Below are positions 8,928 through 63,320 of a stretch of 64,000 nucleotides of DNA, in pieces. The stretch spans positions 1 to 64,000 of the forward strand of contig CANHRS010000005.1 of NCBI GenBank assembly GCA_947463445.1. The letters run 5' to 3'. This DNA is from Flavobacteriia bacterium (GTDB lineage Bacteria > Bacteroidota > Bacteroidia > Flavobacteriales_D > Crocinitomicaceae). Below the pieces are notes generated by a model. The model worked only from the letters and a program-made list of their open reading frames with translations, did not search any database and was not told where the DNA came from. Position numbers and translations under genes: made by a program. Numbering within the stretch: the stretch's first letter is position 1; the number at the start of each line of letters is the position of its first letter.

Positions 8928-11216
8928 CTAATCCAACACTTCCAATTTCGCAAATTTCAACAACAAGGTTTTACTTCCTTCTTGTGGGAAAAAGATAACT
9001 GCCTTTTTTTCTGCTCCAGCACCTTCTAAACGAATTACTTTTCCTTTACCAAATTTTTCGTGAAGTACATTGTAACCAACTTTTAAAGTGGATTCTAATT
9101 CTCCAGAATTTTTACTCGGTCTAGATGTTACATCGGAAAGAGAACGTAAACTTCGCGCTGGTTCAGGAGTGCGATTTAGTCCATGAGATATTGTCCGTTC
9201 AGAAATACCCGAATGTGAATTTAACGAACGACCACCAGTTCTGTTTTGGTAAGGGTTTTCATATTGAATATAGTCTTTGTTTATTTCAGAGATAAAACGA
9301 CTTGGTTCGCTAGTTGTTAAGGATCCAAAAACAAAACGTGAAGCTGCATGAGAAATCGTACATGTTTTTTCGGCTCTAGTAACTGCGACATAAAATAAAC
9401 GTCTTTCTTCTTCCAATTCACTTCGAGTGTTTAATGCCATTTGTGATGGAAATAGATTTTCTTCTAATCCTACCAAATAAACGTGTGGAAATTCCAATCC
9501 TTTACTCGAGTGTATGGTCATTAATGTTATGTGATTCTTTTCGTCTTCTTTTTCATTATCCGCATCTGTTAGTAAGGCAACATCAATCATGAATTCCGAA
9601 AGCGTATTGTTTTCATCTTCCGCTTTAGAATTTGTGAATGCTTTAATACCGTTTAATAACTCTTCAATGTTTTGATAACGCTCCACTTCTTCAGGACCTT
9701 TATCTTTTTCAGAATGCAATTCTTTTAGTATCCCAGATGATTTTGCGATTTCGTATGAAAGGTCGTATGCCTTCATCTTGTCGATTTGAACATGAAAGCT
9801 TTCAATCATTGTAGCGAATTCGGTAAGTTTAGCTTTCGTGGTAGCATTGAGGGCGATTGGATAACGATTGAAGTCATTAATTATATCCCAAATACTCACT
9901 TGGTAGGTATTGGATGCAATGATTAAGTTTTCAATGGATGTTTTACCGATTCCACGTTTTGGGTAATTTACGACACGTTTCAACGCTTCTTCATCTCTTG
10001 GATTAGCCGTCAAACGAAAATATGCTAAAATATCTTTAATCTCTTTACGTTGATAAAAAGATAACCCACCATAAATTTTATAAGGCATATTCAATTTTCG
10101 TAACGCCTCCTCAAATGCTCTAGATTGTCTGTTGGTACGATATAATATAGCAAAGTCATTAAAGGTTAAACCTTCTGCTTGTTTTAAATCATATATTTTG
10201 TTGGAGATAACTTTTCCTTCTTCATTATCCGTTAATGTTTTTATGATTGTAATTGGTTTTCCATCATCGTTTGCAGTCCATACATTTTTTTGAATCTGAT
10301 CTTTGTTTTTGGAGATGACACTATTCGCAGCTTCTACAATTGATTTCGTACTACGATAGTTTTGCTCTAATTTGTATACACGGAAATCTGGATAGTCATT
10401 TTTGAAGTTCAGTATGTTTTGAATATTCGCACCACGGAAAGAGTAAATACTTTGTGCATCGTCCCCAACCACGCAAATATTTTCATAAACAGCTGCCAAT
10501 TTTTTTACAATTAAATATTGTGCATAATTGGTATCCTGATACTCATCGACCAATACATACTTAAATTTGTGTTGGTAATATTGTAATACGTCAGGGAAAT
10601 CTCTTAATAGAACATTTGTATGATATAGTAAATCATCAAAATCCATTGCCCCTGCTTTGAAACAACGATTTGCATAGGTCAGATAAATACGACTGATCTC
10701 AGGTCTACGACTCATTTTATCTTCCTCCATTATTTCCTTATTTTGGGCATATGCCTCGGGAGAGATGAGGTTGTTTTTTGCTGCTGAAATTCTACCTAAA
10801 ACCATACTTGGTTTATAAGTCTTATCATCTAGGTTTAATTCTTTAATGATATCCTTTAGTAAACTCTTAGAATCAGATGTATCATAGATGGTAAAATTTT
10901 GAGGATACCCTAAACGGTCACTATTGAAACGTAAGATACGTGAAAAGACAGAGTGAAATGTTCCCATGGTTATATTTCGAGCTTCACCACCACCAACAAT
11001 TGCATTGATTCTTTCTGTCATTTCTTTTGCTGCTTTATTTGTAAAAGTTAGCGCTAAAACATTGAAAGGGTCAATACCTTGTTTAATCATGTGGGCAATA
11101 CGGTAGGTGAGGACTCTTGTTTTACCAGATCCTGCTCCTGCAATAACCATGATTGGTCCATCAATTTGTTCCACAGCCTCACGTTGGCTACTGTTTAATC
11201 CGTCTAAATATTCCAT
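8928..11216 (-). CDS. UvrD/PcrA-like superfamily 1 DNA helicase
   Basis: 762 aa, the size of UvrD/PcrA/Rep 3'-5' helicases. Walker A AGAGSGKT is at 26-33; Walker B/motif II DEYQDTN is near 225; motifs GDDAQSIYSFRGA, QNYRST, MTIHSSKGLEF and VAVTRAE follow in order. The C-terminal ~50 residues (HEKFGKGKVIRLEG...) form the Tudor-like RNA polymerase-interaction module seen in PcrA/UvrD. Roles in the family are nucleotide excision repair, removal of RecA filaments and rescue of stalled polymerases. The ATG has a -7 box only 5 nt upstream, suggesting a leaderless mRNA. It is divergent from the ribosomal superoperon. Confidence 0.93.
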   Translation of the reverse strand: MEYLDGLNSSQREAVEQIDGPIMVIAGAGSGKTRVLTYRIAHMIKQGIDPFNVLALTFTNKAAKEMTERINAIVGGGEARNITMGTFHSVFSRILRFNSDRLGYPQNFTIYDTSDSKSLLKDIIKELNLDDKTYKPSMVLGRISAAKNNLISPEAYAQNKEIMEEDKMSRRPEISRIYLTYANRCFKAGAMDFDDLLYHTNVLLRDFPDVLQYYQHKFKYVLVDEYQDTNYAQYLIVKKLAAVYENICVVGDDAQSIYSFRGANIQNILNFKNDYPDFRVYKLEQNYRSTKSIVEAANSVISKNKDQIQKNVWTANDDGKPITIIKTLTDNEEGKVISNKIYDLKQAEGLTFNDFAILYRTNRQSRAFEEALRKLNMPYKIYGGLSFYQRKEIKDILAYFRLTANPRDEEALKRVVNYPKRGIGKTSIENLIIASNTYQVSIWDIINDFNRYPIALNATTKAKLTEFATMIESFHVQIDKMKAYDLSYEIAKSSGILKELHSEKDKGPEEVERYQNIEELLNGIKAFTNSKAEDENNTLSEFMIDVALLTDADNEKEDEKNHITLMTIHSSKGLEFPHVYLVGLEENLFPSQMALNTRSELEEERRLFYVAVTRAEKTCTISHAASRFVFGSLTTSEPSRFISEINKDYIQYENPYQNRTGGRSLNSHSGISERTISHGLNRTPEPARSLRSLSDVTSRPSKNSGELESTLKVGYNVLHEKFGKGKVIRLEGAGAEKKAVIFFPQEGSKTLLLKFAKLEVLD

Positions 11217-53054: not shown

Positions 53055-53699
53055 TTGTTTCATAAACCTTTAGCCTTGCAGAATTTTTCAGTACACGTTT
53101 GTGATGATCATCCATTAATAACCTCCGGTTTAGGTCAAGTATTTTTGGAGAGTGATTTTATTACAGATTTTTCTAGTTCTTATTCACGAGAGGGTCTTTT
53201 TTCTTTTCTAAAAAATAATAGGGTAGATTTATTATTGTTAGATATTTCATTGAAGGGACACAATAGTATGGATGATTTACCTTTCATTTTGATGACTTAT
53301 CCGGCTATTAAAGTGGTTTTAATTTCTACGTATGATTTAATGGATATTCAACTTAAAGCTAGGGAAGCTGGAGCGCATGGGTTTATTAGTAAATCGTCCA
53401 ATAATAATCAGTTAATTGATATTTGTCAGCAGGTGATGGAAGGGGTCGATTTTTGGAACTTTGATGCGTTAACTTCGTTTAATTTAGTGCAAACAAAAGG
53501 AGTAGATATAGATTTAACTGTGCGTGAAGTAGAGATTGTAAAATTATTATTGCGCGGGTATACGAATCAAAAAATTGCGAATCAATTAAGCATAAGCATT
53601 CATACCGTTCAGACGCATCGGAAAAATATCAAATCAAAATTACAATTAGAAGGAGCTTCAGATTTGATTGCTTTTGCGAATCGTTTCAAATTGGTTTAG
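53055..53699 (+). CDS. LuxR/NarL-type response regulator
   Basis: 214 aa if started at TTG 53055; an upstream stop rules out a longer frame, and TTG 53076 would give a 207-aa protein. There is no early ATG. The receiver domain has the acidic pair in VCDDHP (Asp17-Asp18), phospho-acceptor Asp63 in LLLDISL and conserved Lys113 in GFISKSS. The C-terminal helix-turn-helix has LTVREVEIVKLLLRGYTNQKIA and LSISIHTVQTHRKNI, the DNA-binding signature. It should be phosphorylated by the kinase encoded tail-to-tail with it (the two stop codons overlap in TTAG). It is the best candidate to bind the TACCCA-N5-TGGGTA palindromes. Confidence 0.92.
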   Translation: MFHKPLALQNFSVHVCDDHPLITSGLGQVFLESDFITDFSSSYSREGLFSFLKNNRVDLLLLDISLKGHNSMDDLPFILMTYPAIKVVLISTYDLMDIQLKAREAGAHGFISKSSNNNQLIDICQQVMEGVDFWNFDALTSFNLVQTKGVDIDLTVREVEIVKLLLRGYTNQKIANQLSISIHTVQTHRKNIKSKLQLEGASDLIAFANRFKLV

Positions 53700-55537
53700 T
53701 TATGAAACAAGGTGAAAATATGTTTCATCCCTTTTTCCAAGGGTAAGATTTCGAATTTACCAAGATCTTGGTTTATTCTTTCATGGATAGAAATAAGTCC
53801 AATTCCATTTTCAGAAATATTTTGCGGGTCATATCCAATACCATCATCTTCAATAATTAAGATGTATTCTTTTTTTGTTGCAATGATCTGAATACAAATA
53901 TTATTTGTTTTAGCGTGTTTTAATGCATTTTCAATTAGTTCTAAAAAAGTAAAGTATATGATTTCTTTTTTACTTTTTTCAATTTGCATTAATTGATTTT
54001 CAGTGTCGATGATGTTTATTTCAAAGGAAATAGAATTGAAGTAGTTTTCTAGTCTAAAGATTTCATCGTTTATTGCTTGCACTAAGGATTTTTTATCTAA
54101 TGAAAAAGTGTGTAAATCGTGGGAGATTTCACGGACGTTTTCTTGTATTTTTTGTATTTCCGTGAAGTAAAAATCCGTATTACTCTCCTTTTTTTTGTTG
54201 TCAGAATCTATTCTTCTGCCTAAAGCGGATAGGTTTGAACTTATGGAATCGTGCAGTTCTCTTGAGATTCTACCTCGTTCATTTAATAAACCTTGCAGGT
54301 ATTTTGTTAACGAATTTTGTCTTTCCTCGAGTAGATTTTTTTCTAATAAAACAGCTTGAATTTTGGATGAAAATAAATCGCGGTGTAGAATTAAAAGTAC
54401 TGTAAATCCTTCGAAAACAATGATCCAACGGAAAGTCATCAGTTGGTTGTAGGATGCGAGCGAAAGCGGTAGCAGTGAGAAAAATACGGTGAAAATTAGT
54501 GTAAACATAAAAAGCATTAAAAAATAGAGTGCTTTTGGAGATTTATTTTTTTTGTACGTATGGAAACAAATTCCAATCATCATGATTGGATAGAATACGA
54601 TTACTAGGTTACTTATTTTATAGAGAATTAGCGGGTAATTTGGCCAGTAAAAGAATGCAGTTTGATTTATAAGTATCGAAACAATGGATAGAAGAATTTT
54701 TATTTTAATGATTTTATGCAGTCTGGGGTAGTTTTGTTTTACTGCAAAAAGTTCGAATAATATCATCCATAAGCTGATAAATGTGACCGTAATAAAATAA
54801 TACATCGTAAAATATCCCTCTAAAAGGTAATTCGCTGGAAGTATCGTTCGGAATAAGCCATTGGAAATGATTAGGATTCCAAAAAGACTAACGATGTAAA
54901 ACGTGTAATAAATATGGACTTTTGATTTAAAACTAATTCCTGTAATAATTCCTAGAAAAAATAGCACACCTATTATTCCGTAAATTATGCCATATTGTAT
55001 TTCATCCTTTCTAGTGTGAATTAAATATTCATTTGATGCGTATATTGAAATTGGCAAGTTTGGGGTTGCAAATGTTTTATTAACTCTTATGTAACAGGTG
55101 TAATTTTTGTTTTTGTTTAAGTGAAAATTAAATATTGGATACCTGGAAACGAATTGTTTGCTGGAGGGATTTTTCAGTCCTTGATTACCTAAATCGTAAA
55201 TTTTGTTTTTTTGCGCGATGTAAAGTGTAAAATCTTCGATAAGTGGGTATTGACTTTCTAAATAATAGCGTCCACTTTTAGTGCATTTCAGCGTAAACTT
55301 TAACCACCAAATGTTTTTATCGAATGGTTTCTTAAATCCACTTGGGCTGACTTTTTTCCACTGTTGCGAGGATAATTGAACAATGGAATCTATGTTAAAA
55401 CTGTTTGTTTTTACGGATGTAGAATATAGATCAGCGTTTACAGTTGTTTTAGTAAATAATTTATCTAGTACAATCGTGTTCCCAAATCCAAGTATTGGAA
55501 AACAACTCACTAGGATAATAATTAATGTTTTAAACAC
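53696..55537 (-). CDS. Sensor histidine kinase with 7TMR-DISM sensor
   Basis: 613 aa, GTG start. Signal peptide (1-20), extracytoplasmic 7TMR-DISM-type beta domain (about 45-165, with LESQYPLIEDFTLYI), seven transmembrane segments (about 180-390), a coiled-coil linker, then a HisKA_3 dimerisation domain with phospho-His429 in RISRELHDSISSNLS and a HATPase_c domain (ELIENALKHAK; DDGIGYDP; NGIGLISI). This sensor class often detects carbohydrates or other surface ligands, which fits the envelope genes next to it, but the ligand is unknown. HisKA_3 kinases pair with LuxR-type regulators, matching the convergent gene. Confidence 0.92.
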   Translation of the reverse strand: MFKTLIIILVSCFPILGFGNTIVLDKLFTKTTVNADLYSTSVKTNSFNIDSIVQLSSQQWKKVSPSGFKKPFDKNIWWLKFTLKCTKSGRYYLESQYPLIEDFTLYIAQKNKIYDLGNQGLKNPSSKQFVSRYPIFNFHLNKNKNYTCYIRVNKTFATPNLPISIYASNEYLIHTRKDEIQYGIIYGIIGVLFFLGIITGISFKSKVHIYYTFYIVSLFGILIISNGLFRTILPANYLLEGYFTMYYFITVTFISLWMILFELFAVKQNYPRLHKIIKIKILLSIVSILINQTAFFYWPNYPLILYKISNLVIVFYPIMMIGICFHTYKKNKSPKALYFLMLFMFTLIFTVFFSLLPLSLASYNQLMTFRWIIVFEGFTVLLILHRDLFSSKIQAVLLEKNLLEERQNSLTKYLQGLLNERGRISRELHDSISSNLSALGRRIDSDNKKKESNTDFYFTEIQKIQENVREISHDLHTFSLDKKSLVQAINDEIFRLENYFNSISFEINIIDTENQLMQIEKSKKEIIYFTFLELIENALKHAKTNNICIQIIATKKEYILIIEDDGIGYDPQNISENGIGLISIHERINQDLGKFEILPLEKGMKHIFTLFHN

Positions 55538-55553
55538 TTGATTTAATTTTTAC

Positions 55554-55561
55554 CGAAAGTA
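55554..55561 (-). promoter_or_regulatory. Near-consensus -7 box TACTTTCG for the kinase gene
   Basis: One mismatch to TAnnTTTG, 16 nt before the GTG start. Its first base lies exactly 31 bp from the centre of the palindrome at 55592, mirroring the plus-strand promoter on the other side. Confidence 0.45.
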
Positions 55562-55583
55562 GGTAGAAAATTTAGTTTTAATA

Positions 55584-55600
55584 TACCCACTATATGGGTA
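55584..55600. promoter_or_regulatory. Palindromic operator TACCCA-N5-TGGGTA, site 1
   Basis: Perfect 6-bp arms with a 5-bp spacer, centred at 55592 between the divergent kinase and beta-helix genes. The same palindrome recurs at 59604-59624. Its position relative to the -7 boxes (31 bp) would place a bound dimer near -42, typical for an activator that contacts RNA polymerase. Confidence 0.7.
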
Positions 55601-55622
55601 GATTATACCAATTGTAATGGTC

Positions 55623-55630
55623 TAATTTTG
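55623..55630 (+). promoter_or_regulatory. -7 box TAATTTTG of the first surface gene set
   Basis: Exact TAnnTTTG preceded by GGTC, 16 nt before the ATG at 55647, and 31 bp from the palindrome centre. No TTG -33 element, as expected for an activator-dependent promoter. Confidence 0.6.
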
Positions 55631-55646
55631 ACAAAAATATTATATC

Positions 55647-56726
55647 ATGAAAAAAATATGTTTCGTTTTATTGTCCGTTGTAGGTATTTCCTTTTGTGGA
55701 CAAAGTAAAGTATTGACTGTTAGTAACAACACTAATTCACCAGGTCAGTATACTGATTTGCAAGCTGCTTGTGATGCTGCATCGGATTATGACACCATTT
55801 ATATACATGCTTCTGAAACATATTACAGCGCGGTGAACATTAAAAAACCTTTGGTTTTAATAGGGGAAGGAGCATTGCCAAATCAGCAAGTGTTGTGGGG
55901 AACCACTGTTTCTTCCATTACGTTTACGTATGACATTGGTTCAGACCTTCCTTCCTCTGGATCTAGAGTATATGGAATAAATGCTTCTTTTACGATTGGT
56001 ACAGATAAGAGTAATACTAATAAAGGAATAAGTGGTATTGTGTTTGAAAGATGTAAAGGATGGATTTATAGTAATCCAGGGGTTAATATTACAGGATTAT
56101 CGATTCATCAGTTTAATGGAGGCATACAATTGCAAGGTGCGCTAGTAAATTCAATTATTTCAAATTCGATATTACATAATGTTAAATGGGGACTTTATTC
56201 TTCAAACAATATAATTCGGAATTGTATTTTGTCTAGTTATTCTCAATTTTATGGAGCAGTTGTAGCGAATAATATTTTTTACGATCCAAATACAGGATCT
56301 ACTCTAAATTTTTTCAGTGCAGAGAACACAACGTTTACGAATAATGTATGTTATTTTTCAACTAATCCGTTTCCACTACAAAACGTTAATAACGTGACCT
56401 ATACTGGTAATATCGTTGATAAAAACCCTAAGTTTGTTCAATCCGCTACCGCTGGAGACGTTAATGGTTATGTTGCTTTTACAGCGCCACCTTTTGCAAA
56501 TTTCAATTTATTAGTTGGCTCTCCAGCATTAACATTGGGGACAGATGGAACACAAGCGGGTATTTATGGTGGTCCAACACCATGGGTAGATGGTGGAGAA
56601 GGTGTTTATCGATATTTTGCTATGCCAAGTCAAGTACCATATGTAACCGATATGGATATTTTGAATACCGCTATTCCATTGAACGGTACATTAAACGTAA
56701 AAATCAAAGCTAAGACACAACAATAA
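55647..56726 (+). CDS. Exported right-handed beta-helix-like protein, paralogue 1
   Basis: 359 aa. Signal peptide MKKICFVLLSVVGISFCGQS, then KVLTVSNNTNSPGQYTDLQAA, the opening common to pectin-lyase-fold proteins (the sequence DTIYIHASE and LVLIGEG follows). The middle has many short Asn/Ile/Val strands typical of a parallel beta helix. The C-terminal ~60 residues (AGIYGGPTPWVDGGEGVYRYF...DMDILNTAIPLNG) are strongly conserved with the genes at 56748 and 59673 and are not a recognisable T9SS sorting domain. No catalytic residues could be assigned. First gene of a three-gene unit. Confidence 0.8.
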   Translation: MKKICFVLLSVVGISFCGQSKVLTVSNNTNSPGQYTDLQAACDAASDYDTIYIHASETYYSAVNIKKPLVLIGEGALPNQQVLWGTTVSSITFTYDIGSDLPSSGSRVYGINASFTIGTDKSNTNKGISGIVFERCKGWIYSNPGVNITGLSIHQFNGGIQLQGALVNSIISNSILHNVKWGLYSSNNIIRNCILSSYSQFYGAVVANNIFYDPNTGSTLNFFSAENTTFTNNVCYFSTNPFPLQNVNNVTYTGNIVDKNPKFVQSATAGDVNGYVAFTAPPFANFNLLVGSPALTLGTDGTQAGIYGGPTPWVDGGEGVYRYFAMPSQVPYVTDMDILNTAIPLNGTLNVKIKAKTQQ

Positions 56727-56747
56727 ATCTTTTAAATATAAATTATT

Positions 56748-57788
56748 ATGAAAAAAATAAGTTTCATTTTGCTGTCCCTACTAGGAGTTTCTTTTTTTGG
56801 GCAAGCTAAGGTTTTGACTGTTAGTAATAACTCAAATTCGCCAGGTCAATATACTGATTTACAAGCGGCTTGTGATGCTTCGGCAATTAATGATACCATT
56901 TACATACATGCTTCCAATAGTATTTATGGAGCTGATATTAAAAAAAGTCTAACATTGATAGGTGAAGGAACTTTACCAGATAAACAAAATTTATTGACTA
57001 CTAAATGTAATTTAAACTTTAGTAAAACCGACCAAATTATCAGTGCATCCGGTACAAAGATAATTGGTATACATGGTGTTTTTAAATTAGCAAATCCTGA
57101 AGGGCTTTCTAACATTTTGTTTGATAGATGTAGAGGTTCAATAGAGTATGCTACATACAGTATTACGTATAAAAATATATTAATTTCTCATTTTGTAGGT
57201 TCAATAAGTGTTAGTTTAACTAATTCAATAATTTCTAATTCGATTATAATGAATTTTTTGAATATTCCATTAAGCCAATCGTCTAGTAATTTAATTACCC
57301 ACTCTTTAGTTTTGGATGCAAATACTTCTCTAAATGGATGTAATGTAAAAAATAGTATTTTTTATTCTATGGATAAAACAAAGAATACTTCGATTGATTT
57401 TATAAATTGCACCCTAGAGAATAACTTATTTTTCACATCAAATTTGCCTGTAATTTTAAATGGTGTTAATAACAAACTATCTATAGATCCTAAATTTTTG
57501 TCTCCTGAATCTGGTGCTGTTTTAATTACTTATAATAACGAGACAGTAGAGCCAAAAGCGGATTTCAAAGTTTTATCAGATTCTCCTGTCTTAACTATGG
57601 GTACTGATGGAAAAGAAATTGGTATTTATGGAGGTGAAAATCCATGGGTTGATGGAGGTAATGGTGTCTTTCGCTATCATACAATGCCTAATCAAGTCCC
57701 ACATATTACCCATATGGATATTTTAAATACTTCCGTTCCTTTAAATGGGAATTTAAAAGTATCTATTAAGGCAAAAGTACAACAATAA
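56748..57788 (+). CDS. Exported right-handed beta-helix-like protein, paralogue 2
   Basis: 346 aa, tandem duplicate of the preceding gene, 21 nt downstream. Signal peptide MKKISFILLSLLGVSFFGQA. The first ~70 residues and last ~60 (IGIYGGENPWVDGGNGVFRYH...MDILNTSVPLNG) closely match paralogue 1, whereas the beta-helix middle has diverged (SNILFDRCRGSIEYATYS). This pattern, constant ends with a variable core, suggests the ends serve export, anchoring or partner binding while the core recognises something variable. Function unknown. Confidence 0.8.
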   Translation: MKKISFILLSLLGVSFFGQAKVLTVSNNSNSPGQYTDLQAACDASAINDTIYIHASNSIYGADIKKSLTLIGEGTLPDKQNLLTTKCNLNFSKTDQIISASGTKIIGIHGVFKLANPEGLSNILFDRCRGSIEYATYSITYKNILISHFVGSISVSLTNSIISNSIIMNFLNIPLSQSSSNLITHSLVLDANTSLNGCNVKNSIFYSMDKTKNTSIDFINCTLENNLFFTSNLPVILNGVNNKLSIDPKFLSPESGAVLITYNNETVEPKADFKVLSDSPVLTMGTDGKEIGIYGGENPWVDGGNGVFRYHTMPNQVPHITHMDILNTSVPLNGNLKVSIKAKVQQ

Positions 57789-57809
57789 TTTTACGTTAAT
57801 AAATTGATT

Positions 57810-59528
57810 ATGAGATACTTATTTTTTATTGTTTGTATATTGTTAAGCGTAAACCTTTTTTCGCAAGATGTTGTTTCTGGAGAATATTTTTTTGATGTGG
57901 ATCCACAAATTGGGAAGGGGAAGGCGTTTGATTTTGTTGCAAGTACAAGTGTCAGCAAGACCTTGGATATTCCGACAACAGATTTAACTCCTGGATTCCA
58001 CAATTTATTTGTGCGCGTAAAGAATTCTAAAGCAGTTTGGGGTCACTCGGAAGGTAGGTTGTTTTATATTTTATCGACACCAACTACGGTAGTTACGAAA
58101 ATTGTTTCTGCAGAATGGTTTGTAGATAAAGACCCTGGAATTGGAAAAGGGACATCGTTTGTTGTAAGTCCGGATCAAACTTCTTCGTTATTAGATGTTA
58201 CTACCAAAACATTGACGGAAGGTTTCCATAATTTATTTGTCCGCGTAAAGAATAGTGCAGGAGTTTGGAGTCATTATGAAGGAAGGTTATTTTATGTTTT
58301 ACCAACTTCAACCACTACTTCTTCTAAAATTGTTTCTGCGGAATGGTTTGTTGACCAAGACCCTGGAATTGGAAAAGGTACATTGTTTGTTGTAACTTCA
58401 GATCAACCTTCCTCGTTGTTGGATGTTTCTACCCAAAAAATCACGGCTGGTTTTCATAATTTATTTGTGCGTGTCAAGAATAGTGCGGGAGTTTGGAGTC
58501 ATTACGAGGGGAGGTTATTTTATGTGATGCCTGCACTGATAAAGCAAGATACCAAAATTGTTTCTGCAGAATGGTTTGTAGATAAGGATCCTGGTATTGG
58601 AAAAGGAAAAATCATTCCATTTACAGCAGCTAATACATTGAGTGAAGTACTTGACTTGGCTTCAGCAGGTGTAAAAGATGGGGCACATAATTTATTTATT
58701 CGTGTGGTAAATGATAAAGGAGTTTGGAGTCATTACGAAGGACGTAAATTCCTAGTTTGTAAAGATCCGATGCAACAACCGATCTTGGAAGTTACTACTC
58801 AACTTTGTGCAGGGGACACACTGCATTTAACAGGTAAGCCTGTAGTAGGCGCAACAAGTTATTATTGGAAAGGACCAAATAGTTTTACCAAAACTGGATT
58901 AAAAGTAGAGCAATTCAATGTGGATACCCTGCAATCTGGAACGTATACCTTGTATGCAGTGCGTGCAGGTGGAACTGCTTGTGATACGACTAGTGCGAGT
59001 ATTTCCGTGTTTGTAAAACCATTACCAAAGGTTTCTTTTTCTTTGATGAGTCCGATCTGTGATACATTAAAAAGTGTTGCGTTAACTGGAGGAGTTCCAA
59101 TAGGAGGTACTTATGTTGGGAAACAGGTGACTAATTCTACGTTCAATACACTGAATAAGGCGGGTAGTTATACAATAGAATATACTTTCCAAGCTAAAAA
59201 TGGTTGTAATTCTCAAGCGACTTCAACGATAAAAGTGTTGAATTGTAGCCAAAGTTCTTCGGTGGATGAAGGTACAATTTCGGGGATACACATTTTTCCA
59301 AATCCAACTTCTGATTTCTTACATATTAGTTCTTTGGATCCATCTTTATTGCATGGATCCATCCACGTGTCGGATGTTTTAGGTAGATCATTAGTCCATT
59401 TGCGCGTGGAGAGTGTTAGTACAACTATTTCGTTACGAAAATTAGGTGGATCAGGTGTTTACTTGGTGTATATATATGATTCACAAGGTGTTTTTGTAAA
59501 ATGTACACAAGTAGTTCTGCAGGATTAA
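57810..59528 (+). CDS. T9SS-exported repeat protein 1
   Basis: 572 aa from ATG 57810 (a TTG two codons earlier is also in frame). Signal peptide ending near SVNLFSQ. Four tandem repeats of about 75 residues follow, each opening like SAEWFVDKDPGIGKG and closing like FHNLFVRVKNS.GVWSHYEGRLFYV. Then come two Ig/PKD-like domains with disulfide-type Cys (CAGDTLHLTGK; PICDTLKSVALTGG) and a C-terminal type IX sorting domain (IHIFPNPTSDFLHI ... GVYLVYIYDSQGVFVK). It should be secreted through the T9SS and attached to the cell surface. The DxDPGxGKG loops might bind a metal, which is speculation. Confidence 0.85.
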   Translation: MRYLFFIVCILLSVNLFSQDVVSGEYFFDVDPQIGKGKAFDFVASTSVSKTLDIPTTDLTPGFHNLFVRVKNSKAVWGHSEGRLFYILSTPTTVVTKIVSAEWFVDKDPGIGKGTSFVVSPDQTSSLLDVTTKTLTEGFHNLFVRVKNSAGVWSHYEGRLFYVLPTSTTTSSKIVSAEWFVDQDPGIGKGTLFVVTSDQPSSLLDVSTQKITAGFHNLFVRVKNSAGVWSHYEGRLFYVMPALIKQDTKIVSAEWFVDKDPGIGKGKIIPFTAANTLSEVLDLASAGVKDGAHNLFIRVVNDKGVWSHYEGRKFLVCKDPMQQPILEVTTQLCAGDTLHLTGKPVVGATSYYWKGPNSFTKTGLKVEQFNVDTLQSGTYTLYAVRAGGTACDTTSASISVFVKPLPKVSFSLMSPICDTLKSVALTGGVPIGGTYVGKQVTNSTFNTLNKAGSYTIEYTFQAKNGCNSQATSTIKVLNCSQSSSVDEGTISGIHIFPNPTSDFLHISSLDPSLLHGSIHVSDVLGRSLVHLRVESVSTTISLRKLGGSGVYLVYIYDSQGVFVKCTQVVLQD

Positions 59529-59567
59529 CCCTTTATTCAAAATAAATTTTCACTAGTAATTAAATTC

Positions 59568-59599
59568 AAAAGCTGTCCTCTAAAGGGACAGCTTTTTTT
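59568..59599 (+). terminator. Terminator between the two surface gene sets
   Basis: AAAAGCTGTCC / GGACAGCTTTT stem with a short loop and a run of seven T. It ends the first unit (55647-59528), and the second operator begins 5 nt later. Confidence 0.85.
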
Positions 59600-59603
59600 G
59601 AAA

Positions 59604-59624
59604 TATACCCATTAAGTGGGTATA
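59604..59624. promoter_or_regulatory. Palindromic operator TATACCCA-N5-TGGGTATA, site 2
   Basis: Perfect 8-bp arms with a 5-bp spacer, centred at 59614; its core is the same TACCCA-N5-TGGGTA as site 1. It sits 31 bp before the -7 box of the second surface gene set. Confidence 0.75.
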
Positions 59625-59644
59625 TATGAGCAGTTTTTAAGGTC

Positions 59645-59652
59645 TACATTTG
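59645..59652 (+). promoter_or_regulatory. -7 box TACATTTG of the second surface gene set
   Basis: Exact TAnnTTTG preceded by GGTC, as at 55623, 20 nt before the ATG at 59673 and 31 bp from the palindrome centre. Confidence 0.65.
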
Positions 59653-59672: not shown

Positions 59673-60755
59673 ATGAAAAGAAAAGTTTTTGGAGTCCTTG
59701 CTTGTATGGGCTTAACATTCTTGGGACATGCCAAGGTATTGACAGTAAGTAATAATGTTGCATCTCCGGGGCAATATACCGTTTTGCAAACAGCATGTGA
59801 TGCAGCAGCGTCCAACGACACAATTTACATCCATGGTTCGGAAAGTAGTTATGGTGAAGTAAGTATTACCAAGCCTTTGGTATTGATAGGTACAGGTGTA
59901 AATGCGCAAAAACGCTTTAAATTTTCTTCAAGTGTAAGTACTATTTCCATAGGTTGGAATGCGAGTACAACTCAGAATGGTGGAGGGAGTAAAATTTTCG
60001 GGTTAGATATTAATACATTTTACATAAATGATTCCCAAAATTCAAGTGGAATCAAAAACGTGTTGATACAAAGAAATAGAATTGGATATATAAGTGTTGG
60101 TGGTTATCGCGTTGCTTCAAACATAAATATCAATAATAATGTATTAGGAGGTGCAAGTATTAATGGTAAAAGTGTTTATCTCAAAAATAATGTGATTCTA
60201 GGAGGAGTTTCAGGAGGGGAAAAAGATTTTGTTGGGACATTGGTTGTAGCACATAATGTCATTTATGGATCTTGTTCTATTTCAAGGGCATCTGTTTATA
60301 ATAATATTTTTTATTCTTCCAGTTCTGAAGTTTTTCAGTATTGTCAGTACACGAGTATCACACGAAACTTGGTAATTGGGAAAATAAACTACACCAATGC
60401 CAATATTGTTTTTGGAACAAATACAGGGGGGGAAAATATTTTAAATGAGGATCCTTTATTTGTAGATGTAAATACAAATCTTATGTCCTATTCATATACT
60501 AATCCACCAACAGGGCCATTTGTAGATTACCATTTAAGTGCAGGTTCTCCAGCAATTGGTGCTGGTATTGGCGGAGTTGATTTAGGAATTTACGGAGGAG
60601 ATACACCATTTTTTGAGGGAACTTCCGAAGATGGTCGTAACCGTTATTTTCCAATGCCAGCTATTCCTGTTATGTTGGACATGAATATTGTTAATTCATC
60701 GGTGTTAAAAAACGGCAAGATAAAAGTAGAATTTAAAGCACGTAAACAAGATTAG
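59673..60755 (+). CDS. Exported right-handed beta-helix-like protein, paralogue 3
   Basis: 360 aa from ATG 59673; the frame extends upstream to a GTG inside the operator, which is rejected. Signal peptide MKRKVFGVLACMGLTFLGHA, then KVLTVSNNVASPGQYTVLQTA as in paralogues 1 and 2. The core has Asn-rich short strands (NININNNVLGGASING). The end (DLGIYGGDTPFFEG...MPAIPVMLDMNIVNSSVLKNG) is the most diverged of the three. First gene of the second unit, immediately followed by a repeat protein, mirroring the first unit. Confidence 0.8.
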   Translation: MKRKVFGVLACMGLTFLGHAKVLTVSNNVASPGQYTVLQTACDAAASNDTIYIHGSESSYGEVSITKPLVLIGTGVNAQKRFKFSSSVSTISIGWNASTTQNGGGSKIFGLDINTFYINDSQNSSGIKNVLIQRNRIGYISVGGYRVASNININNNVLGGASINGKSVYLKNNVILGGVSGGEKDFVGTLVVAHNVIYGSCSISRASVYNNIFYSSSSEVFQYCQYTSITRNLVIGKINYTNANIVFGTNTGGENILNEDPLFVDVNTNLMSYSYTNPPTGPFVDYHLSAGSPAIGAGIGGVDLGIYGGDTPFFEGTSEDGRNRYFPMPAIPVMLDMNIVNSSVLKNGKIKVEFKARKQD

Positions 60756-60756
60756 T

Positions 60757-62520
60757 ATGTTAAAGTACATTTTTGTTTCTTTTAGTGTGCTATTTTTTCA
60801 TGCATTACTATTTGCTCAAAACTTGACTTCTGGGGAGTATTTTTTTGATATAGAACCAGGAAACGGAAAGGCGCAAACATTTAGTTTTGTTTCAGACGCG
60901 CAAGTTTCAGGTAGTATTGAGTTAGATATTAGCACGTTATCACCAGGGTTTCATTTTTTATACACGCGCGTAAAAAATAGTGCGGGAGTTTGGAGTCATT
61001 ACGAAGGACGATCTTTTTATATTTTAGAAAATTCAACGTATACAACATTTGATCCACAGCCGAATTTGGTTCAGGGAGAATGGTTTATGGACACAGATCC
61101 AGGAAATGGTAAAGCGACTGCATTTAGTTTTGCATCTACAGGAGAAGTAAGTAAGTCATTAGACATCGATTTAGCGAATTTATCCGAAGGATTTCATCAA
61201 CTATTTATTCGTGTAAAAGCAGAAAATGGACGATGGAGTCATTACGAAGGTAGAATGTTTTATGTGATTGAGCCTTCGAAATATACGATGAGTGAAAATC
61301 AACCGATGCTTTCCGCTGCAGAATATTTTATGGATAAAGATCCAGGGTTAGGTAAGGGTAAACCGATTTCACTTTTACCTGCTGATTCTGTTTCCATGGT
61401 AGCAGATCTAGATGTTAGTAATTTACCGGTAGGTCCGCATACATTGAGTGTTCGCGTTCGAAATAGTAAAGGTGTTTGGAGTTTGTACGAACAACGTTCC
61501 TTCTTTATTATTGAAACTGCGCCAATACTTCCTCTTGCCAATACTCAATTGAAAGCATATGAATGGTACGTTGATAAAGATCCTGGATTTGGGAAAGGAA
61601 CCAAATTAGCTGTTGCACTAACAGATACCTTAGTTTCAGCTATCGATTTAACTATGTTGAATTTAACAGATGGAGAACATGTGTTATTCCTACGTGTTCA
61701 AAATACATTGCAACAATGGAGTTTGCAGGAAAGTCGAAAGTTTACCATTTGTACTAATGTACTTTCTACACCAGTAATTACTAGTCAACCTAAAATTTGT
61801 GTTGGAGATACGCTTTATTTGACGGGTAAGTCTGTAGTAGGAGCAACAAGTTATTTTTGGAAAGGACCAACTAGTTTTACCCAAGCGGGATTAAAAGTTG
61901 TTATGTCTCATGCGGATATCCTAAAATCTGGCGAATATAATTTATATGCAGTACGTGCCGGTGGAACAGGTTGTGATACCAGTAATGCAAATACGTTTGT
62001 TACCGTAATGCCTGTGCCGGAAGTAACATTTGATTTAGATACTTCGATTTGTGATACTGTAAAAAGTATTCAATTAACAGGAGGCGTTCCTAGTGGAGGT
62101 GTTTATTCTGGAGAGCATATTACGAACAATACATTTACTACAACAAGTAAAGCAGGAAGTTATACTGTTAATTATAGATATAAAGCCAAAAATGGTTGTT
62201 TTTCAGATGCATCCGCTTCAGTAGAAGTTGTGAATTGTACCCAAAGTTCGGTAGATGAACTATCGTTTTCAGGCATAGCTGTGTATCCAAATCCTACAAC
62301 CGACATTTTGTATTTAAGTTCCATAGGGAAATCCCTTTTAGGGTATACAGTTCAAATCTCCGATGTTTTAGGAAGAGAATTATATACAGAGAAGGTAAGT
62401 AATATTTCTACAAAGATTTCGTTACAAAAAATAGGTGCTTCGGGCATTTATTATGTGCATATATATGATGCTTTTGGTGTGTTTGTACAAAGTACACAAT
62501 TTGCATATACAGAAAATTAA
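60757..62520 (+). CDS. T9SS-exported repeat protein 2
   Basis: 587 aa, paralogue of the gene at 57810. Signal peptide (1-20, ending ALLFAQ). Four repeats open SGEYFFDIEPGNGKA, QGEWFMDTDPGNGKA, AAEYFMDKDPGLGKG and AYEWYVDKDPGFGKG, and close with WSHYEGRSFYI-like sequence that decays to WSLQESRKFTI in the fourth. Two Ig/PKD-like domains (CVGDTLYLTGK; SICDTVKSIQLTGG) and a T9SS sorting domain (IAVYPNPTTDILYL ... GIYYVHIYDAFGVFVQ) follow. It starts 1 nt after paralogue 3, so the two should be coupled. Confidence 0.85.
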   Translation: MLKYIFVSFSVLFFHALLFAQNLTSGEYFFDIEPGNGKAQTFSFVSDAQVSGSIELDISTLSPGFHFLYTRVKNSAGVWSHYEGRSFYILENSTYTTFDPQPNLVQGEWFMDTDPGNGKATAFSFASTGEVSKSLDIDLANLSEGFHQLFIRVKAENGRWSHYEGRMFYVIEPSKYTMSENQPMLSAAEYFMDKDPGLGKGKPISLLPADSVSMVADLDVSNLPVGPHTLSVRVRNSKGVWSLYEQRSFFIIETAPILPLANTQLKAYEWYVDKDPGFGKGTKLAVALTDTLVSAIDLTMLNLTDGEHVLFLRVQNTLQQWSLQESRKFTICTNVLSTPVITSQPKICVGDTLYLTGKSVVGATSYFWKGPTSFTQAGLKVVMSHADILKSGEYNLYAVRAGGTGCDTSNANTFVTVMPVPEVTFDLDTSICDTVKSIQLTGGVPSGGVYSGEHITNNTFTTTSKAGSYTVNYRYKAKNGCFSDASASVEVVNCTQSSVDELSFSGIAVYPNPTTDILYLSSIGKSLLGYTVQISDVLGRELYTEKVSNISTKISLQKIGASGIYYVHIYDAFGVFVQSTQFAYTEN

Positions 62521-62546: not shown

Positions 62547-63320
62547 ATGAAAAAAAGAGGTATAGCACAAAAAATTGGATTACTATCGTTTATATTATTG
62601 GTTTTATCAATCACATTTTCCTGTGAAAAAGAAGCGATCAATAAAACGAGTTCAGATGGAGGAACTATTGGCAATACAGCCACAACCACAACAACGACTA
62701 CAGGAAATACAACCGTAATTCCAAATACATCGTTTAATCCTTATGGGATTTGGCAACGGTTTGGATCTCCAAAAGGGTACAAAACAGATTTAGCAGTTGG
62801 AAATATTCCTGGTGAGCCTGCTAATCGGGTATATATGTGTGAGCATCCGGGCTCTCCATCAGAAGGTTTGTATAAGGGGTATATTAATGGGAATATTATT
62901 ACTTGGGATTCGGAATTTGGGTTGCCTAATGCTGAATTTAAGCAAGTGAATAATTATATGACTTTATATTTCAATGTTGGTTTACCGGAGGATGCAGGAA
63001 AGTATGCGCGAGGTATTTGGACGAATACGTGTGGTCCTTTGAGTAAAGAGAATACGAATGAAAATGGTTCAGTAGGTAATCTATTATTTTGGACAGCTTC
63101 AGATTTAGGTTGTGGAGATATCCAAGTTACCGTAGAAGGTGTAACAAAAACCATTGATTCTTATTATAGTGCATCGCCGTCATGCGGATCTACAGGTTGC
63201 GCAAATTTTACATTACCAGTAGGCGTTTATAGTTATACAGCAAGTTGTAGTAGTTATACCTGGAATGGTACAATCAGTTGCACAAATAATGGCTGTAGTA
63301 AAATGCAATTCATTCAATAA
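62547..63320 (+). CDS. Putative surface lipoprotein with Thr-rich linker
   Basis: 257 aa. A long signal ends SITFSC, giving a lipoprotein Cys near residue 27; the following residues EKEAINK are compatible with outer-membrane sorting in Bacteroidota. A linker rich in Thr, Gly and Asn (about 40-62) leads to a globular region with GIWQRFGSPKGYKTD and a Cys-rich C-terminal domain (DLGCGDIQVTVEG...SPSCGSTGCANFTLPVGVYSYTASC) that looks like a beta-sandwich. No known function. 26 nt after the repeat protein gene, probably the same transcript. Confidence 0.75.
   Translation: MKKRGIAQKIGLLSFILLVLSITFSCEKEAINKTSSDGGTIGNTATTTTTTTGNTTVIPNTSFNPYGIWQRFGSPKGYKTDLAVGNIPGEPANRVYMCEHPGSPSEGLYKGYINGNIITWDSEFGLPNAEFKQVNNYMTLYFNVGLPEDAGKYARGIWTNTCGPLSKENTNENGSVGNLLFWTASDLGCGDIQVTVEGVTKTIDSYYSASPSCGSTGCANFTLPVGVYSYTASCSSYTWNGTISCTNNGCSKMQFIQ

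Follow-up and report, generated by a model that had tools for sequence, protein, structure and literature searches.

Two exact copies of one palindrome stand at the same distance from the promoters of two sets of surface genes, and the question raised is which protein reads them, and with what effect. The locus lies in a stretch of 64,000 nucleotides from a freshwater Flavobacteriia bacterium of the Crocinitomicaceae (GenBank assembly GCA_947463445.1, contig CANHRS010000005.1, positions 1 to 64,000 of the forward strand), here called the window. The palindrome, TACCCA-N5-TGGGTA, accompanies genes for a sensor histidine kinase and a LuxR/NarL-type response regulator (RR), and the genes downstream of it encode predicted exported beta-helix proteins (bh1, bh2 and bh3) and repeat proteins (rep1 and rep2). 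The probable reading of the sequence is that a two-component system of the NarL/FixJ family controls a small regulon at this locus, consisting of the surface operons and probably the kinase gene, via class II activation.

Palindromes and sigma-A boxes in a fixed register

A sequence-only reading of this DNA had placed palindromes at centres 55592 and 59614, each with a GGTC-preceded -7 box 31 bp away, and all of these coordinates were confirmed. The boxes TAATTTTG and TACATTTG match the Bacteroidota consensus TAnnTTTG perfectly. On the kinase side a box beginning at 55561 had been called near-consensus, which is a fair description; TACTTTCG, with one mismatch, is nevertheless the weakest of the three. 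The first base of all three boxes lies 31 bp from the centre of the palindrome and 22 bp from its edge. An apparent terminator precedes the second palindrome (Table 1), and predicted operator 2 would therefore open a new transcription unit. In most surface-gene promoters an extra TACC half-site is seen 4-5 bp after the palindrome and before the box (window 55601-55622; loci L047, L048, L188); it is absent at site 2 of the window.

The genome scan proposed in that reading found that the palindrome is not common genome-wide: the assembly (2.56 Mb, 91 % complete) contains exactly two copies, both in the window, compared to about 0.09 expected from base composition for one spacer length. The same assembly was searched for the palindrome, 22 bp and the box combined, allowing up to three mismatches and using the reversed pattern as control. 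The two perfect sites were returned, followed by the kinase-facing site with one mismatch; there was nothing at two mismatches, and two places with three mismatches were not above the control. The claim that the spacing is beyond chance was thus upheld, both by the copy number and by a search that was clean down to the noise. Because only two perfect sites and one site with a single mismatch were obtained before the noise, the regulon readable from the sequence appears to consist of three promoters at one locus.

Homologous loci, the comparison of which had also been proposed, were sought in 13 congeneric genomes including the own genome (G000). In the complete genome G010, in which the RR and the kinase are 95 % identical to those of the window, the same two exact N5 sites stand at the same promoters and no other exact copies occur. 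The kinases of G001 and G003 are only 48-49 % identical to the window kinase, but each gene is still convergent with its own RR gene, and in G001 the pair still adjoins alaS. Between the kinase gene and the divergent gene of these two genomes the palindrome is TACCCACTTATGGGTA, i.e. its spacer is 4 bp (N4). When spacers of 1-9 bp were scanned in the genus, N4 copies of TACCCA/TGGGTA were found in G001 (two), G003 (three) and G011 (two). All those of G001 and G003 are at the kinase-RR locus; one G011 copy precedes a beta-helix gene, and the other is at a contig end, where one of its two sides is unreadable. An earlier view based on exact N5 copies alone, that the motif is limited to two species, was dropped when N4 was found in the three further congeners. 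Matches with spacers of N3 or N9 lacked a box at 22 bp, as did a single N4 match in G006, and none of these was kept. Contigs matching G011 and G001 are filed under the names Candidatus Planktophila lacus and Chitinophaga pinensis (records L150 and L151), and these names look wrong.

In all five species, every copy facing a surface gene has a perfect TAnnTTTG box 22 bp from its edge, so that the register seen in the window is preserved in G010, G001, G003 and G011. The genes behind these promoters vary by species and comprise beta-helix genes, genes for small lipoproteins (G001 and G003) and a gene for a 1416-residue FG-GAP/SprB protein with a sorting domain (G001). When ten promoters from the five species were aligned, the box started exactly 22 bp from the proximal arm in all ten. 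Both arms and TA..TTTG were invariant and much of the intervening DNA differed; from distal arm to box the alignment has a single indel, of one base, in the palindrome spacer. Since this spacer is 4 bp in G001, G003 and G011, what the species have in common is a distance of 22 bp between proximal arm and box. The 31 bp from centre to box, stressed in the sequence-only reading, is exact in the window but does not hold across species.

The candidate regulator and its predicted mode of action

The RR consists of a receiver (Response_reg, 1.9e-14) followed by a GerE domain (2.7e-15; Pfam) and has the invariant phospho-acceptor Asp, in LLLLDIS, of NarL/FixJ response regulators. Its relatives with solved structures include NarL, VraR and EvgA, the best PDB sequence match being VraR (5.7e-18). 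The convergent and overlapping kinase gene encodes HisKA_3 (5e-7) and HATPase_c (1.8e-6; Pfam), as expected of a partner kinase. Orthologs of the RR (E 4.5e-42 or better) were found only in G000, G010, G003, G011 and G001, which are exactly the five motif-bearing genomes of the 13; the best match in the other eight was 6e-27. The five orthologs form one clade (Shimodaira-Hasegawa-like approximate likelihood ratio test 100), in which the N5 pair and the N4 trio are sisters (98 each). G008, a 99 % complete genome without the motif, has orthologs of all five further LuxR-type RRs found in the own genome. Among the six LuxR-type regulators examined in the own genome, only the window RR matches the distribution of the motif across congeners, in agreement with the earlier choice of the adjacent regulator as candidate. 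The helix TVQTHRKNIK is identical in 5/5 orthologs, in keeping with the identical half-sites.

The sigma-A box of Flavobacterium psychrophilum, TAnnTTTG, was mapped to -12 to -5 (PMC9723704), and the -7 box of the window is of the same kind. With the same position assumed for it, the centre of the predicted sites would be at -43 (N5) or -42.5 (N4), and their extent about -51 to -35. No TTG was seen at -33 of the site-bearing promoters, in the window sequence or in the promoter alignment, and unlike in other sigma-A promoters the -33 region is filled by the proximal half of the palindrome, as in an activator-dependent promoter. A centre near -42, overlap with the -35/-33 region and the lack of a good -33 element together correspond to class II geometry, and the activator position of about -42 predicted earlier would fit such activation.

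Class II activation by a phosphorylated RR dimer is the best-supported mechanism. The 7TMR-DISM kinase would sense an envelope or external signal and phosphorylate the RR, and the RR dimer would bind the inverted repeat at operators 1 and 2. Bound at about -51 to -35, in the place of the missing -33 element, it would contact the sigma-A polymerase on TAnnTTTG and turn on bh1-bh2-rep1 and bh3-rep2, possibly with the lipoprotein-like gene, and probably also the kinase gene through the other face of operator 1. The proximal half-site would be held in register with the polymerase and the distal one free to shift by one base. Autoregulation of the kinase is plausible, as read from boxes with one mismatch. 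Binding, its dependence on phosphorylation, activation over repression, kinase autoregulation, the signal and the function at the surface are inferred.

The Escherichia coli NarL system, with NarX/NarQ, is similar in its receiver and GerE regulator and its HisKA_3 kinase, in the use of inverted heptamers of the TACYYMT kind, and in having one site placed 30-32 bp upstream of the -10/-7 element. Each window site has one arm TACCCAT, a full match, and one arm TACCCAC, matching at 6/7 positions. For comparison, the engineered narG -89 site is TACCCCTAAAGGGGTA (PMC4549865), the 7-2-7 site at ogt1052 is at -44.5, 32 bp before the -10 element (PMC9314961), and that at yeaR is at -38 to -47 (PMC4549865). 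The 7-2-7 spacing (16 bp) is found in the sites of G001, G003 and G011, whereas those of the window and G010 are 17 bp (7-3-7). The window system differs from NarX-NarL in the sensor domains of its kinase, which are 7TMR-DISMED2 and 7TMR-DISM_7TM and not those of a nitrate sensor, and from NarL in its TAnnTTTG promoter box and its targets, which are surface genes at the same locus. The two-domain layout of VraR, EvgA, ChrA and DesR is like that of the RR, an overall family resemblance only. We know of no targets or operator shared between these four regulators and the RR.

Several observations weigh against the assignment of the site to this two-component system. The kinase-facing box carries one mismatch in every species (TAATTTGG in G001 and G003, at the same 22 bp offset). 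The kinase was not found in G011, where the RR and the beta-helix gene are on separate contigs. The five species are related, and the co-occurrence of RR and motif does not represent five independent events. In addition, some motif loci in other Bacteroidota adjoin PAS-LuxR and not two-component regulators, and more than one LuxR subfamily may read a TACCCA/TGGGTA site across the phylum.

It could be that the palindromes are operators of another regulator, for example a PAS-LuxR one-component protein or a LuxR-type RR encoded elsewhere, and that the adjacent pair is merely another target. PAS-LuxR genes as well as RR genes adjoin the motif in other Bacteroidota, and other beta-helix loci of the family adjoin PAS-LuxR genes and have palindromes of their own. 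However, the RR query found no PAS-LuxR-type protein in the own genome, the window RR is restricted to congeners with the motif while its five LuxR-type counterparts in the own genome are found in congeners without it, and the operator sits between the kinase gene and the surface genes in G000, G010, G001 and G003. We therefore regard another regulator as unlikely. Repression from these sites, by the RR or another protein, is less likely still. Repression is within the range of NarL-family regulators, NarL itself being a repressor at frdA (PMC4549865), but the predicted sites are upstream of the box and not over the box or the start, the missing TTG at -33 is what an activator-dependent promoter would show, and in none of ten promoters does the distance to the box depart from 22 bp.

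Sites 1 and 2 could also be alike merely through descent from a duplicated promoter, without functional constraint, since bh1 and bh3 are paralogues and the sequences shared around the two sites suggest one copied promoter. This is very improbable: the same arms, register and box stand before unrelated genes (FG-GAP/SprB in G001; small lipoproteins in both G001 and G003), the stretch that separates the arms from the box has diverged, and motif and box also occur together across Bacteroidota. The cross-species alignment already rejects duplication alone as the full explanation. That the palindrome is a terminator, a mobile-element repeat or an RNA hairpin is hardly credible, as the short intergenic inverted repeat, although a terminator stands just before site 2, is not followed by a T-run, is separate from that terminator, has just two copies per genome, and would leave the fixed distance to the downstream box unexplained.

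With control by the RR as the preferred explanation, the change from N4 to N5 can be considered. In the RRs of the two N5 species (G000 and G010) the linker between receiver and GerE domain is 7 residues longer. Because the longer linker and the wider spacer arose in one evolutionary event, their match is a correlation at most. In a tree of the beta-helix proteins the G003 protein (N4) groups with bh1/bh2 (94/95), excluding bh3. Taken at face value, the change would have occurred separately at two operators in the window lineage, a pattern to be expected had a change in the regulator come first. It is just as possible that one promoter was copied onto the other, because GGTC precedes the box, and AATA the palindrome, at both site 1 and site 2.

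Genes and features of the locus

Table 1 Features of the locus in the window
Feature	Position (strand)	Remarks
LuxR/NarL-type RR	53055..53699 (+)	Receiver and GerE helix-turn-helix; likely start 53055 or 53076
Sensor histidine kinase	53696..55537 (-)	Signal peptide, 7TMR-DISMED2, 7TMR-DISM_7TM, HisKA_3, HATPase_c (Pfam)
Kinase-facing -7 box TACTTTCG	55554..55561 (-)	One mismatch to TAnnTTTG; 22 bp from palindrome edge
Predicted operator 1, TACCCACTATATGGGTA (6-5-6)	55584..55600, centre 55592	Between the divergent kinase and bh1 promoters, common to both
Sigma-A -7 box TAATTTTG, bh1 operon	55623..55630 (+)	22 bp from predicted operator 1
bh1, predicted exported parallel beta-helix protein	55647..56726 (+)	
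bh2, paralogue of bh1 (48 % identity)	56748..57788 (+)	Absent from G010
rep1, repeat protein	57810..59528 (+)	Type IX secretion C-terminal sorting domain, Por_Secre_tail 9.7e-9
Apparent intrinsic terminator (AAGCTGTCC...GGGACAGCTTTTTTT)	59569..59599 (+)	Ends the bh1-bh2-rep1 unit; read from sequence
Predicted operator 2, TACCCATTAAGTGGGTA	59606..59622, centre 59614	
Sigma-A -7 box TACATTTG, bh3 operon	59645..59652 (+)	22 bp from predicted operator 2
bh3, third beta-helix paralogue	59673..60755 (+)	
rep2, repeat protein	60757..62520 (+)	Type IX secretion C-terminal sorting domain, Por_Secre_tail 1.5e-11
Lipoprotein-like gene	62547..63320 (+)	Begins 27 bp past rep2, possibly same unit

The Pfam search gave no match for the exported proteins bh1, bh2 and bh3, nor for the product of the lipoprotein-like gene. 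An AlphaFold2 model of bh1 (predicted local distance difference test, pLDDT, 77.5) consisted of short parallel strands in succession, and the weak matches that Foldseek ranked highest included beta-helix polysaccharide lyases, pectin methylesterases and tailspikes. The model of rep1 was too poor (pLDDT 63.7, predicted template modelling score 0.30) and was not used. The surface genes appear to evolve fast behind conserved promoters. Between G000 and G010, bh1 is only 60 % identical, compared to 95 % for the RR and the kinase and 94 % for alaS, and bh2 is missing in G010.

The palindrome and box beyond the genus

When 399 genomes of the order were scanned for the N4 or N5 palindrome, 22 bp and the box, ten matches were obtained in the five congeners and one in G024; the reversed pattern gave one. 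The G024 match, shared with record JAMLHA010000001, was not counted, since it is near a PAS-LuxR gene but its box faces away from the flanking genes. The same scan of 84,980 genomes returned 66 stretches, nearly all from Bacteroidota and mostly N4. Outside the genus a LuxR-type (GerE) gene was observed within 300 bp at 10/61 motif-and-box loci, compared to 0.5 % of positions taken at random from 1.2 Mb of control sequence; the significance of this enrichment, 7e-13, is approximate, as some of the same matches went into the profile. A scan of 395 genomes of the phylum in which any offset from 8 to 38 bp was allowed gave 11 matches, 8 of them at 22 or 23 bp.

Two further types of promoter were noted in these scans. 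Algoriphagus has repeated promoters with an A-tract, TACCCAGTACTGGGTA and a T-tract, often two per genome and some before a conserved gene of about 85 residues (loci L099, L105, L106, L109, L110, L112, L116, L121, L133-L135, L142, L145, L155, L159 and L164). A second type, TACCCA-N4-TGGGTA-TTG with an offset of 23 bp, was seen in distant Bacteroidota (G475:C2, G525:C34, G565:C3 and G778:C7) and continues with GACGG in 2/4 cases.

Other beta-helix/repeat cassettes near PAS-LuxR genes (L187 in G001:C6, L186 in G003:C24 and L190 in G016:C2) have TAGCTA and CACTCA palindromes 22-23 bp before TAnnTTTG: TAGCTATTTATAGCTA occurs at three promoters of G001, with a one-mismatch copy in G003, and CACTCAATATTGAGTG occurs in G016. 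In addition, in G010:C1 (L199, about 10438-10453) and G004:C137 (L172, about 1401-1416) an RR gene and a divergently transcribed gene flank TACACCTTTTGGTGTA, which is 23 bp from TAGTTTTG. These cases suggest that different LuxR-type regulators have operators of their own that share one geometry. The GCACGA-N4-TCGTGC repeats of G003, which share the 23 bp distance to a box, have T-runs behind them and resemble terminators; they were not counted as operators. In a 1.2 Mb sample (G010, G015 and G001) no genome-wide pile-up of palindromes was seen at 22-23 bp (2/28 N4 cases, compared to about 0.4 per offset elsewhere). Because of this, the palindrome-box architecture is concentrated at certain loci and is not a general property of promoters.

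We tentatively suggest, as a possibility for the family, that every beta-helix/repeat cassette of the Crocinitomicaceae is paired with a LuxR-type regulator of its own and with a private palindrome of 16-17 bp (TACCCA, TAGCTA or CACTCA). The distance from this palindrome to the sigma-A box would be fixed at 22-23 bp. The operator (one more base in the spacer, at both sites) and the RR linker (seven more residues) may then have changed together in the window lineage, while the recognition helix and the distance from arm to box stayed as they were.

The literature searched yielded no operator for two-component systems of the LuxR type or the 7TMR-DISM type in Bacteroidota. The palindrome described here is a candidate for such an operator that can be read from sequence, NarL-like and in a fixed register to the sigma-A box. 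The 22 bp register could be used as a search rule for LuxR-type activator sites in the phylum, and the N4 and N5 forms, with the shorter and longer linker, provide a clean pair for probing how far a dimer tolerates changes in half-site spacing. An orphan sensor kinase would also be linked to fast-evolving surface proteins. The proposed local regulon is of the NarL type and has a Bacteroidota promoter geometry.

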